Of a DNA stretch of 41,128 nucleotides, positions 24,780 through 37,741 are shown piece by piece. The DNA is taken from positions 1 to 41,128 of the IMG/VR virus record IMGVR_UViG_3300018411_000043; one strand, 5' to 3'. The position numbers and the translations under genes are program-made. The stretch is from a virus. Position 1 is the stretch's first letter. Each line of letters opens with the position of its first letter. The notes beneath the pieces were generated by a model. It was given only the letters and a program-made list of their open reading frames with translations. It was not told where the DNA came from and did no database searches.

Positions 24780-24807
24780 CGCGAAAACGGCAGATTATAT
24801 TATGGAA
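24780..24807 (+). promoter_or_regulatory. Repeated promoter-like motif, copy 6 (abuts tRNA-like element)
   Basis: CGCG-N6-GCA-N5-TATTATGGAA. The next base (24808) is the first base of the tRNA-like acceptor stem, so transcription probably starts at or very near GGAA. Confidence 0.75.
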
Positions 24808-24877
24808 AGATGATTGGTCAAATTGGATAAGACACAGTTTAATTACTGGATTGTGAGTTCGAATCTCACATCATCTT
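24808..24877 (+). tRNA. tRNA-like element with undersized anticodon arm
   Basis: The 70-nt element folds as follows. The acceptor stem AGATGAT/ATCATCT is a perfect 7 bp. TG fills positions 8-9. The D arm is GTC-AAATTGGATAA-GAC with the conserved GG. The T arm GTGAG-TTCGAAT-CTCAC is perfect and has the canonical TTCGAAT loop. The anticodon arm is only 14 nt (CAGT-TTAATT-ACTG) instead of 17, leaving a 6-nt loop with no clear anticodon. No CCA is encoded. A T-rich stretch follows. It could be a degenerate tRNA, an atypical functional tRNA, or a tRNA mimic. Confidence 0.5.
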
Positions 24878-24941
24878 TTATTTTTTAATTAGGAAGGTGA
24901 TGAATGCTGTGGCATTTTTTAAAAACGAAAGAGGTGATATT

Positions 24942-25229
24942 ATGTATAGTTACGCAACTGCCATTCGAGCATTTTTTGATGATCTCGATATAGTTTGTCC
25001 ATTATGGCCAAAAAAACATTTCGAAGCTAGATGTTATGAAGAATGGGCGATAGACGAAATTATAGAAATCCTCGAAAATGATCAAGAATCAGAACCAGTA
25101 CAATTGGTCGAGGAATTCATTAAAAAAATGGATAAATATTCGTGCTATAATGAAAAAACAAGTTTTATGTTTTCTACGGCTAAAGATACAGCTGTATGTG
25201 TTCTTGATTTGTTATTGACTTATTATTAA
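24942..25229 (+). CDS. Conserved hypothetical phage protein
   Basis: 95 residues from ATG 24942, which has AAGAGGTGAT at good distance; in-frame GTG/ATG at 24897-24900 lack a usable site. YATAIRAFFDDL, then WPKKHFEARCYEEWAIDEII and YSCYNEKTSFMFSTAKDTA form a pattern I recognise as a small conserved family in Firmicute phages, function unknown. Soluble, helical, acidic. Confidence 0.65.
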   Translation: MYSYATAIRAFFDDLDIVCPLWPKKHFEARCYEEWAIDEIIEILENDQESEPVQLVEEFIKKMDKYSCYNEKTSFMFSTAKDTAVCVLDLLLTYY

Positions 25230-25736: not shown

Positions 25737-26531
25737 ATGAATAAACTATATTTACAAACAGTTGCTAGAAACGTACGTATGATTGCTGAGAAACGCAGTC
25801 CAGAAATACTTACGGGTATTGGTATTGCTGGTATGATCGGGACGGTTGTAATGGCTGTACGAGCTACACCCAAAGCATGTCAGCTTATTGAAAACGAGAA
25901 ATATGAACGAGCATGTGAAGAGGATATAGACGGAATCATGCGAGATTTAAAACACATTGATTATATCAAATTATCGTGGAGATGCTACTTACCAGCAGCC
26001 ATTACTGGTTGTATTTCGGTAGTATGTTTGATTAGTGGGAGTTCAGTTAATTCAAAGCGTAATGCGGCATTAGCCACGGCGTATACTTTGTCCGAATCGG
26101 CGCTAAAAGAGTACAAAAATAAAGTTGTTGAAACTATCGGAGAAAAGAAAGAGCAAGGGGTCCGTGACGCGATCGCTAAAGACAGACTCGATCGTAACCC
26201 CGTAAAGAGTAAAGAAGTAATTATCACAGGAAAAGGTGAGACTCTGTGTTATGATTCCATTTCTGGTCGATATTTCAAATCTGATATCGACAAGATCAAG
26301 AAAGCAATCAATGAGTTGAATCGTCAAATGTTAGAGGAGATGTATGTTTCACTTAATGATTTCTACTATGCTATAGGATTGTCTAACACTTCAATGGGTG
26401 ATGATTTGGGCTGGAATATCGACCAAGGTCTGCTTGAGTTGGATTTCAGTGCACAACTGATGGAGAATGGAGAACCGTGTCTGGCTATTGATTATCGAAT
26501 TCAGCCGAAACATAAATTCTATAATGCATAA
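25737..26531 (+). CDS. Membrane protein, DUF6353-like (paralogue 1)
   Basis: A 264-residue protein. SPEILTGIGIAGMIGTVVMAVRATPKA (about 21-47) is the first membrane helix, and YLPAAITGCISVVCLISGSS (about 84-103) the second. The hairpin is followed by KRNAALATAYTLSESALKEYKNKVVE, then a soluble C-terminal domain with SLNDFYYAIGL and DDLGWNIDQG. This matches what I recall of DUF6353 proteins, abundant in gut phages and of unknown role. A related gene lies at 28752. GAAGGGAG is the ribosome site. Confidence 0.7.
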   Translation: MNKLYLQTVARNVRMIAEKRSPEILTGIGIAGMIGTVVMAVRATPKACQLIENEKYERACEEDIDGIMRDLKHIDYIKLSWRCYLPAAITGCISVVCLISGSSVNSKRNAALATAYTLSESALKEYKNKVVETIGEKKEQGVRDAIAKDRLDRNPVKSKEVIITGKGETLCYDSISGRYFKSDIDKIKKAINELNRQMLEEMYVSLNDFYYAIGLSNTSMGDDLGWNIDQGLLELDFSAQLMENGEPCLAIDYRIQPKHKFYNA

Positions 26532-28751: not shown

Positions 28752-29687
28752 ATGAAAAAAGTAGAAATCGTTAATACCGTAGTAAAGAATTTCAACAGAG
28801 GTAAATTTCAGATGGTTAAACACAGTCCTGAAATTCTTGTAATTTCTGGCATTGTTGGTGCTGTGGCAGCCGCCGTTGTGGCTTGCAAGGCGACAACAAA
28901 ACTTGGGGATATTTTGGATGACACGAAAGAACAGCTTGATGTAATCCATGATTTTTTAGCAGACGAGGAACGCTGCGAAAAGAATGGGTATACACAAGAA
29001 GATTCTAAGAAAGATACGATCATTATTTATACAAAGGCCAGCGTTGCGATTGCGAAACTTTATGCTCCAGCAGTAATTATTGGAGGTTTATCGATCGCCG
29101 GCATTCTAGCATCAAACAACATTCTGCGCAAAAGAAACGTTGCTCTTGCGGCTGCTTATGCAACTATCGATAAAGGTTTCAAAGAATATCGTAACCGTGT
29201 AGTTGAGCGATTCGGTAAAGAGGTCGACCACGAACTAAAATATAACATCAAAGCCAAAAAGTTCGACGAAACAGTCGTTGATGATAATGGTAAAGAGAAA
29301 ACATCAGCCAAAACTGTAAAAGTTTCTGAAGGTATTACTAATGGTAGTGATTATGCGAGATTGTTCTGTAAAGAAACAACTTTAGCTTGGGACGAAAATC
29401 ATGATTACAACATGCTATTTTTGAAAGGACAGCAGAAATATGCAAACGACAGACTTGTTCATACTGGACATTTATTTTTGAATGACGTATATAAAGAATT
29501 AGGATTAGCAACAACTAAAGCTGGTCAAATCGTTGGTTGGACTTATGATGAGAAGAACCCTACTGGCGATAACTTTGTAGATTTCGGTCTGTTCGAAGAA
29601 AATTTTGAAGTGGTAAATGGGTATAACAAAGGCATTTTATTAGATTTCAACGTTGATGGTCCCATTTTAAATACAATGACCGATTGA
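28752..29687 (+). CDS. Membrane protein, DUF6353-like (paralogue 2)
   Basis: A 311-residue protein with HSPEILVISGIVGAVAAAVVAC (membrane helix 1, about 24-45), a second helix (LYAPAVIIGGLSIAGILASN, about 104-123), then KRNVALAAAYATIDKGFKEYRNRVVE. The soluble C-terminal domain has HLFLNDVYKELGL, GQIVGWTYDEKNP and GDNFVDFG. It is the larger relative of the protein at 25737, with an extra segment before the second helix. The open frame continues after the TGA with a well-composed 23-codon extension (see 29688). Confidence 0.75.
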   Translation: MKKVEIVNTVVKNFNRGKFQMVKHSPEILVISGIVGAVAAAVVACKATTKLGDILDDTKEQLDVIHDFLADEERCEKNGYTQEDSKKDTIIIYTKASVAIAKLYAPAVIIGGLSIAGILASNNILRKRNVALAAAYATIDKGFKEYRNRVVERFGKEVDHELKYNIKAKKFDETVVDDNGKEKTSAKTVKVSEGITNGSDYARLFCKETTLAWDENHDYNMLFLKGQQKYANDRLVHTGHLFLNDVYKELGLATTKAGQIVGWTYDEKNPTGDNFVDFGLFEENFEVVNGYNKGILLDFNVDGPILNTMTD

Positions 29688-36207: not shown

Positions 36208-36442
36208 AACATATGGATCCGATTATCCAAACGAATTAATTAACCTAATAAAAGATGCTGGTCAAGAAATAATCGATCGAGCTGAGCAAATGGTTGCACC
36301 CGAAACAGCGTTAATAACTGACTTTTCGATAACTATTAATTTTAATCAGGAGCTTGGCGTTCCAACCATATCATGGAAGGATACCGTTATCGTCACCAAT
36401 ACTATAAATCGACATACGAGTGAGGTGAATCAAAATGATTGA
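36200..36442 (+). CDS. Hypothetical protein
   Basis: An 80-residue protein with AAAGGAG at its start and 8-bp overlaps with both neighbours. It has an amphipathic helix (NELINLIKDAGQEIIDRAEQ) and then beta-like sequence (DFSITINFNQELGVPTISW). I do not recognise it; coupling places it with the replication-associated group. Confidence 0.5.
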   Translation: MAKTYGSDYPNELINLIKDAGQEIIDRAEQMVAPETALITDFSITINFNQELGVPTISWKDTVIVTNTINRHTSEVNQND

Positions 36443-36899
36443 AAAAGTTGGAGTTATATCTTTTGATAATAGACTCCTCGATGTGTACTCTTCGTTGGAT
36501 GATCCGCTATTTATGGCTTTCGATATTGCTAACATGATCGATTATAGCAGGGGGAACACATGGAACATGCTTAACGTATGTGAAGATGACGAAAAGCTGA
36601 ACCTACCAATGGTAGTTGCAGGTCAAAAGCGACAAGTTAGTTTTGTAAATGAAAATGGTTTATACAATATATTATCTGAGAGTAGAAAACCATTAGGACG
36701 TAAATGGCGAAGAATTATACACGACGAGCTTATCAAGTTGAGAAAAAGTCGTGGTAAAAATGTCGTGGAACAATTCGAAGATTGGGATCATGAACTCGAT
36801 ACGTTATTCATAGATCCCGAAACAGGTATTATGATGCAGTCCGTAACAATCCAAGGTGGAGATGTTATACAAATTCCTTATAATAAGAATGGAGAATGA
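36435..36899 (+). CDS. Bro-N domain protein (antirepressor-like)
   Basis: A 154-residue protein. Residues about 10-110 form a Bro-N domain: [46 protein letters not shown] and [16 protein letters not shown], the DNA-binding pattern of phage antirepressors. The C-terminal about 45 residues are acidic and lack a Kil-A/ANT partner. The next gene carries a second, related Bro-N. No repressor gene is visible, so the regulated target is unknown. Confidence 0.8.
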
Positions 36900-36904
36900 A
36901 AATC

Positions 36905-37741
36905 ATGGCAGATCAAATTAATGAAAACGAAGTAGAACAGGTAACGGTTATCACCATATTAGGAACACCATTCAACATGTATGGCACAATTGATAATCCC
37001 ATATTTTTAGCAAATGAAATTGCTGAAAAAATTGAGTATTCGATGGATAAAGTTGGACAAATGCTCGATCTTGTTGAGGATGATGAAAAGCTGACCGATA
37101 CAATATATCGTGCAGGTCAGAGGAGAGAAATGTGGTTTGTTACTGAAAATGGTTTGTATGAATTACTAATGCAATCTCGAAAGCCATTGGCAAAGCAGTT
37201 TAAATTCGAAATTAAGAAGATGCTCAGAATGCTCAGAACTGGCGAATTACAAAAGCGTCGTGTTATTTCTGATGGTGGTAGAAATCTTATTATCGAAAAC
37301 GCAAGAGTATTATTTTGCAATTTTTCAGGAAATGAAAGTAAATTTAATAGAGCTGGCGATCGTAACTTCTGTGTAATCATTGACGATTCAAAACAAGCAG
37401 AACTATTAATTGCTGACGGCTGGAATGTAAAAACACTTAAACCTAGAGACGAAGCGGATGATGTTGCCTATTACATTCAAGTTACTGTTAGATTTGACAA
37501 CTTTCCTCCAAAAGTCGTTATGATTACGAGACGCACAAAAACAGTTCTCGATGAGGAATCCGTTGGCACTCTAGATTTTGCAGAGATTCAAAATGTGGAC
37601 CTTACAATAAGTCCATCCAAATGGGAAGTAAATGGTAAGAGTGGAATCAAAGCATATTTGAAGAATATGTATGTAACTATTGAAGAGGATGAATTTGCAG
37701 CTAAATATGCAGATGATGGTATTGACGAGGTAGAGTTTTAA
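36905..37741 (+). CDS. Bro-N domain fused to a possible ssDNA-binding domain
   Basis: 278 residues from ATG 36905 (better spaced from GGAG than the ATG at 36896, which overlaps the previous stop). Residues about 10-112 are a Bro-N domain ([32 protein letters not shown]). From about 120 a domain begins [20 protein letters not shown], with [20 protein letters not shown] and [21 protein letters not shown]. This matches a free-standing early protein of many Firmicute phages that I take to be SSB-like. The fusion could target DNA binding or autoregulation. Confidence 0.65.

Follow-up and report, generated by a model that had tools for sequence, protein, structure and literature searches.

The locus described here raises the question of what a phage may gain from a stand-alone small RNA that has the body of a tRNA and lacks a usable anticodon. 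The window (the whole stretch of DNA analysed, a virus record of 41,128 bases) carries a siphophage-like genome with terminase, portal and tail genes. The original prediction had described a tRNA-like RNA with a short anticodon arm, had attributed the shortage to loss of the anticodon, and had offered a decoy function or decay of a former tRNA as explanations. The usual explanations for tRNAs in phages are codon supply and resistance to anticodon nucleases.

The predicted cloverleaf with its short anticodon arm was recovered by ARAGORN, by the Rfam tRNA model (RF00005) and by free RNA folding (Table 1). ARAGORN, named in the prediction as a check, made a single gene call in the window, 24807-24878 (+), reported as 'tRNA-???' with a two-base anticodon. 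RF00005 scored 43.3 bits on 24808-24877 (E 3e-8 in a 301-base search; gathering threshold 29 bits), and its alignment places a three-base deletion within the anticodon arm. An Rfam gathering scan of the whole window did not match the RNA, presumably due to the fast filters. The cloverleaf is the minimum-energy fold, with a z-score of -1.9 against shuffles, 10 of 200 of which fold equally well. The RNA shows the tRNA hallmarks of a 7-bp acceptor, a D arm with GG and a T arm with a TTCRA loop, followed by TTTTATTTTTTAA 3' of the T arm. In an elongator tRNA the anticodon arm has 17 nt with a 7-nt loop; here it has 14 nt with a 6-nt loop, whose second base is T. Elongator tRNAs end in a single-stranded NCCA, usually with a purine at position 73; no CCA is encoded here. 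None of the open reading frames listed for the window overlaps the RNA.

Table 1. Features of the tRNA-like RNA and its neighbours in the window
Feature	Position	Strand	Remark
Promoter-like repeat CGCGAAA-N3-ACA-N5-TATTATGGA	24780..24806	+	GCA replaces ACA in this copy
GGAA immediately 3' of TATTAT	24804..24807	+	24805-24807 pair with 24877-24879, lengthening the acceptor helix
tRNA-like RNA	24808-24877	+	Cloverleaf with 14-nt anticodon arm (4 bp, 6-nt loop), 3 bases short
Acceptor 5' strand AGATGAT	24808..24814	+	Rfam tRNA match and L086 comparison
T8 G9 linker	24815..24816	+	Family conservation of positions 8 and 9
D arm GTCA-AATTGGATA-AGAC with GG	24817..24833	+	Rfam tRNA match; T-A pair becomes C-G in L086
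A26			Between D arm and anticodon arm
Anticodon arm CAGT-TTAATT-ACTG	24835..24848	+	14 nt vs 17; ARAGORN, free fold, Rfam
Variable loop GATT	24849..24852	+	Final base is position 48, tertiary partner of A15
T arm GTGAG-TTCGAAT-CTCAC	24853..24869	+	Rfam; in L086 both partners differ in two T-stem pairs
Acceptor 3' strand ATCATCT	24870..24876	+	Without encoded CCA; sequence, L086 comparison
T-tract	24876..24886	+	Presumed intrinsic terminator (closed acceptor helix, then U-tract)
Small gene, 95 aa, phrog_10740	24942..25229	+	Downstream of the RNA; context, partnership not implied
DUF6353 membrane protein	25737..26531	+	Phage-group marker; Pfam PF19880, E 1e-86

The promoter-like motif and T-tract claimed for the RNA are both present. 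The motif is one of eight copies of a repeat in the window, where 0.01 would be expected by chance; the other copies near 23.7-26.5 kb stand before small genes. In the repeats between 23680 and 26565, a spacer of only 5 bases separates the ACA box from the TATTAT downstream of it, which sets this promoter apart from one with a sigma-70 -35 site; judging from how the RNA pairs, transcription would begin immediately 3' of the hexamer. The same motif occurs upstream of the RNA in relatives, and the 3' side of other members has TTTTATTTTT-like tracts or a separate terminator hairpin. In a set of 30 RNAs, the outward extension of the acceptor helix stops precisely at the base that follows the -10 box: from there inward the sites are paired in 90-100% of cases, apart from a weak site at +6, and the next base upstream in 17%. 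In several Gordonia phages, GAGA straight after TATAAT pairs with TCTC straight before the U-tract. Because helix pairing reaches exactly that base, we infer that the RNA starts just after the -10 box, stops at the U-tract and has both ends closed with no CCA; the 5' end of the window RNA would be at 24804. In many members a single mismatch recurs in the acceptor helix some 7 bases into the closing helix (pairing of 66% at +6), and it may be a conserved point of weakness.

The DUF6353 protein downstream served as the marker for gathering related loci, which yielded 66 viral and 59 bacterial-genome loci. ARAGORN called 'tRNA-???' genes in many of these, on the same strand and upstream of the DUF6353 protein. 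A covariance model (R1) was built from 15 of the called loci and detected members in many of the remaining ones. It also found members in Faecalibacterium phage FP_oengus (Oengus), Lactococcus phage P078 and the human-gut phage MT835485; further members occur in Lactococcus phages P092 and P162 and in seven Gordonia phages. The RNA occupies the same genomic slot in 36 of 63 distinct loci having both flanking marker genes and was not detected in the other 27, a distribution that strengthens the earlier view that it is not a random relic. The family is judged from these sequences to be old; it spans phages of Lachnospiraceae and other Clostridia, Faecalibacterium, Lactococcus and Gordonia. In every annotated record checked, no annotated feature marks the RNA. 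Over viral contigs, the strict pattern TAAGACAC-N21-GTTCGAATC gave no matches because the D-arm sequence of the window is unusual. A DNA search of the phage collection with the window's own RNA found none, and the downstream gene used as a search key in viral contigs returned no relatives. As a control, 200 genomes of Hungatella's family contained no short-arm tRNAs, in about 0.6 Gb and hence a weak comparison. Three loci (L063, L121 and L137) contain two tRNA-like RNAs each. The closest relative, L086, whose marker protein is 84% identical to that of the window, sits in a contig binned as Bacteroides sp.; this bin is probably wrong, because the phage relatives of L086 are in Clostridia.

The original prediction proposed a covariance comparison with relatives, and this comparison separated a covarying tRNA body from an anticodon arm variable in length and loop. 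In an alignment of 41 distinct members, pairing is kept in 94.6% of stem cells, and both partners have changed in 17 of the 20 stem pairs. Covariation scored 0.69, compared with 0.23 after shuffling and no more than 0.22 when the structure was slid, in an alignment fitted to the covariance model, which favours the structure, and among related sequences that are not independent. The tertiary pair 15-48 lies outside the covariance model, yet it covaries (G-C in 24 members, A-T in 13, with four exceptions). T8 and a purine at position 9 are found in 41/41, A14 and the GG in 40/41 each, and C56 and A58 of the T loop in all aligned members. At position 73 all 41 aligned members have a pyrimidine (C or T), which takes part in a pair in most of them; CCA is not encoded in the members inspected, and by inspection G3-U70 is not constant. 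Between the window and L086, three stem pairs have changed with full compensation, a fourth has turned into a wobble and none is broken, and four of the six anticodon-loop bases differ (CTGAAA in L086). A read error at the short arm is thereby rejected: the arm of L086 is likewise 14 nt long, with three compensated stem pairs and another loop, and the shortness is common to dozens of independent contigs and isolate genomes.

Roughly half of the members have an anticodon arm of 14 nt, and arm lengths in the family span 10-34 nt; these counts are approximate owing to misparsed rows (L025, L040, L042, L063, L072, L110 and L137). Loop base 2, in the place of U33, is A in 14 members, C in 11, G in 11 and T in 10, and U33 is therefore not conserved; the 4-6-nt loops have no shared sequence. 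We read the arm as a kept cap and not a ruin, because its stem still pairs in 95.7% of cells. In the Gordonia phages the arm has 12 nt, mostly CCGC-GCAA-GCGG or with GAAA, and a predicted GNRA-type tetraloop replaces the anticodon. The four-base loops of the Lactococcus phages P078, P092 and P162 differ from one another (TTAT, TCAT and TAAT). Loss of the anticodon, as first proposed, is too narrow a description, since the whole arm is free in length and sequence.

Near-identical phages can have different RNAs in the slot. L091 and L095, with a marker distance of about 1%, have a common body with an arm of 14 nt in the first and 26 nt in the second, and between them the 15-48 pair changes from G-C into A-T. 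L028, L107 and L110 carry different alleles, and L012 and L014 are 95% identical up to the RNA, where L014 continues with a different closed-ended RNA. The RNAs at L014 2966-3045 and L124 8475-8570 are flush-closed and in the same promoter setting, with interiors that are not an obvious cloverleaf. L087 and L116 have truncated forms that retain the closing stem; the remnant in L024 is reduced further. Lactococcus phage P118 is without the entire cassette kept by P078, P092 and P162, and its join fits a presumed recombination between promoter repeats. Because some phages have truncated or non-tRNA forms or none, phages can do without the RNA, and not all of them require the tRNA body. Such dispensability, together with the turnover of alleles, is more in keeping with an accessory factor for counter-defence or host takeover than with a housekeeping factor.

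No partner gene adjoins the RNA in all RNA-bearing loci; the phrog_10740 gene is present in 33 of 50 of them, at variable distance. The window encodes two DUF6353 (PF19880) paralogues (25737-26531 and 28752-29687), and proteins of this type are widespread in Arthrobacter, Gordonia and Streptomyces phages. At 36435-37741, one protein has an anti-repressor-type domain and the next has such a domain fused to a single-strand-annealing protein domain. In the Arthrobacter phage CastorTray (L077 7640-7990), a 392-base gap contains three promoter-plus-small-RNA units in a row. A flush 11-bp closing helix and a T-arm hairpin GCGGTTCGAATCCGC are present in the first, which has no clear D arm, and this small-RNA region is conserved in dozens of Arthrobacter phage records. 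The short-anticodon-arm pattern TAGCTCARTTGGNAGAGC-N19-24-GGTTCRA was matched in IMG/VR viral contigs (L146-L224); most of the matches listed belong to other phages without this promoter, some with encoded CCA, and short-armed phage tRNAs may be a broader phenomenon.

We consider the RNA to be probably a tRNA look-alike made by design and not a broken tRNA, and we tentatively favour a trans-acting decoy built on the tRNA body, a reading drawn from comparative sequence data. A stand-alone phage small RNA would copy the acceptor, D arm, T arm and elbow, and not the anticodon. It would be transcribed from its own copy of the repeated phage promoter and end at the U-tract. Its first and last bases would pair in a closed stem of about 9-13 bp, with the anticodon arm kept as a capped hairpin, and closed stem and capped arm may render it nuclease-resistant, stable and unable to decode. 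Such a mimic would dock to a host protein or ribozyme that reads the elbow and acceptor stem and not the anticodon, and would occupy it during infection. Candidate targets would be a Cas12a3-type tRNA-attacking defence nuclease or a tRNA-maturation enzyme, e.g., RNase P or RNase Z, and the fast allele turnover would fit a target differing between host strains. The tRNA elbow is a binding site for many RNAs and proteins, among them RNase P, RNase Z and numerous modification enzymes (PMC4810234). A bacterial-immunity nuclease that engages the tRNA tail, acceptor and T arm exists, and its authors stated that viral resistance to it would require 'yet unknown' means (PMC12851939). A Cas12a3-like defence nuclease reading the acceptor and T arm is, taken by itself, an unlikely though specific candidate for the target. 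Equally speculative is the wider proposal that closed-ended, anticodon-free mimics inhibiting Cas12a3-like nucleases, and swapping alleles at one slot, are widespread phage RNA counter-defences. An aminoacyl-tRNA synthetase is less favoured as the decoy target, because position 73 is always a pyrimidine and mostly paired and no CCA is encoded in members inspected. The extended closed acceptor would alter the elbow-to-end distance measured by RNase P-like enzymes, and the fit to any enzyme is uncertain.

Several alternatives to such a decoy were considered. One is a regulatory small RNA whose tRNA-like body serves only as a scaffold for stability, the working part being the variable arm loop or another exposed stretch that pairs with phage or host RNAs. 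This would agree with an arm that changes fastest and is replaced whole in the near-identical L091 and L095, with closed ends and a capped arm, and with the L014 and L124 forms that keep the closed stem despite other interiors. We regard it as unlikely: 4-6-nt loops without shared sequence are short for a seed, the Gordonia GNRA tetraloops are structural caps and not seeds, and a scaffold has no need of the 15-48 pair or the elbow bases. That the RNA is a former phage tRNA, decaying after loss of its anticodon, was the second of the explanations first offered. The truncated forms in L024, L087 and L116, the 27 of 63 loci in which the RNA is undetected and its absence from P118 speak for it. 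Decay would be expected to affect all arms, whereas the acceptor, D and T stems, elbow bases and tertiary pair are maintained by compensatory changes across very divergent phages, the anticodon alone is lost and promoter and terminator are still intact; we hold this explanation to be improbable. A cis element without trans function, such as a terminator or insulator, an attachment site or a recombination island between promoter repeats, has still less probability in our view. A closed helix followed by a U-tract would terminate transcription, terminator-promoter cassettes are common in the window, and P118 lost exactly one promoter-RNA unit; the other window units, however, have simple hairpins, and none of D arm, elbow and 15-48 pair is required of a terminator. 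In Hungatella DSM 13479 the prophage copy alone matches at full length, so the RNA is not a duplicated attB; a duplicated host tRNA or attachment-site fragment was rejected, as the next-best match in that genome is 78% over 57 bases.

Two further readings retain a translational or aminoacylated role. Some aminoacyl-tRNA synthetases do not require the anticodon, and the tRNA fold is intact, so an RNA charged by such an enzyme and used outside the ribosome is conceivable. We consider this very improbable given the pyrimidine at position 73, paired in most members, the lack of encoded CCA in those inspected and the inconstant G3-U70, and the searches made found no transferase in the window. An ordinary decoding tRNA with an odd anticodon arm would account for a score above the Rfam tRNA threshold and for the nominal anticodon that ARAGORN gives to a few members. 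This is effectively refuted by the random loop base 2 where U33 would be, the free arm length and the tetraloops that take the anticodon's place in Gordonia phages. Likewise, tRNA-dependent lysogeny was rejected, since the phage RNA has no usable anticodon to complement a host tRNA.

Comparison with known systems places the RNA apart from each of them. It resembles canonical tRNA (RF00005, 43.3 bits) in its acceptor, D and T arms, elbow bases and 15-48 pair, and differs in its short variable anticodon arm without U33, the lack of encoded CCA, the mostly paired pyrimidine 73 and the closed extended acceptor. The tRNA-Other of B. cereus is likewise a tRNA-like RNA acting outside translation in a Gram-positive, but it has a Trp anticodon and is part of a longer, iron-regulated chromosomal RNA (PMC3399842), whereas the phage RNA has no anticodon, has its own phage promoter and belongs to a conserved phage family. 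A pseudo-tRNA of that type was rejected for the window RNA, which is without an anticodon and has its own promoter and T-tract within about 85 bases. The annotated tRNA-Undet(nnn) of the Microbacterium phage Librie (cluster EA5) also has a defective, shortened anticodon arm (PMC9583789). It scores 54 bits with model R1; it comes from an unrelated phage type with a different gene context and an encoded CCA, and is possibly convergent with the phage RNA family. Plant-virus tRNA-like structures (e.g., TYMV) share viral mimicry of the tRNA elbow, but they form the 3' ends of RNA genomes and have a pseudoknotted acceptor (PMC4810234), in contrast to a stand-alone RNA of a DNA phage. The tRNA-like domain of tmRNA is a tRNA upper half without anticodon, whereas the phage RNA has no mRNA part or tag; ARAGORN finds no tmRNA in the window. 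Phage tRNAs that evade anticodon nucleases have altered anticodon loops as a counter-defence and still decode (PMC10264068), which the RNA described here, judging from its sequence, cannot.

We found no description of the RNA family in the open-access literature searched, where absence is not proof. The family has been invisible in annotation, being either unmarked or listed as 'tRNA-???'. A conserved family that keeps everything but the anticodon can serve neither codon supply nor anticodon-nuclease resistance, which suggests that DNA phages use the tRNA body for something other than translation. Members occur in phages with cultivable hosts, namely Lactococcus phages P078, P092 and P162 and many Gordonia SEA-PHAGES isolates, with P118 as a natural deletion among the Lactococcus phages, and the function is therefore directly testable.
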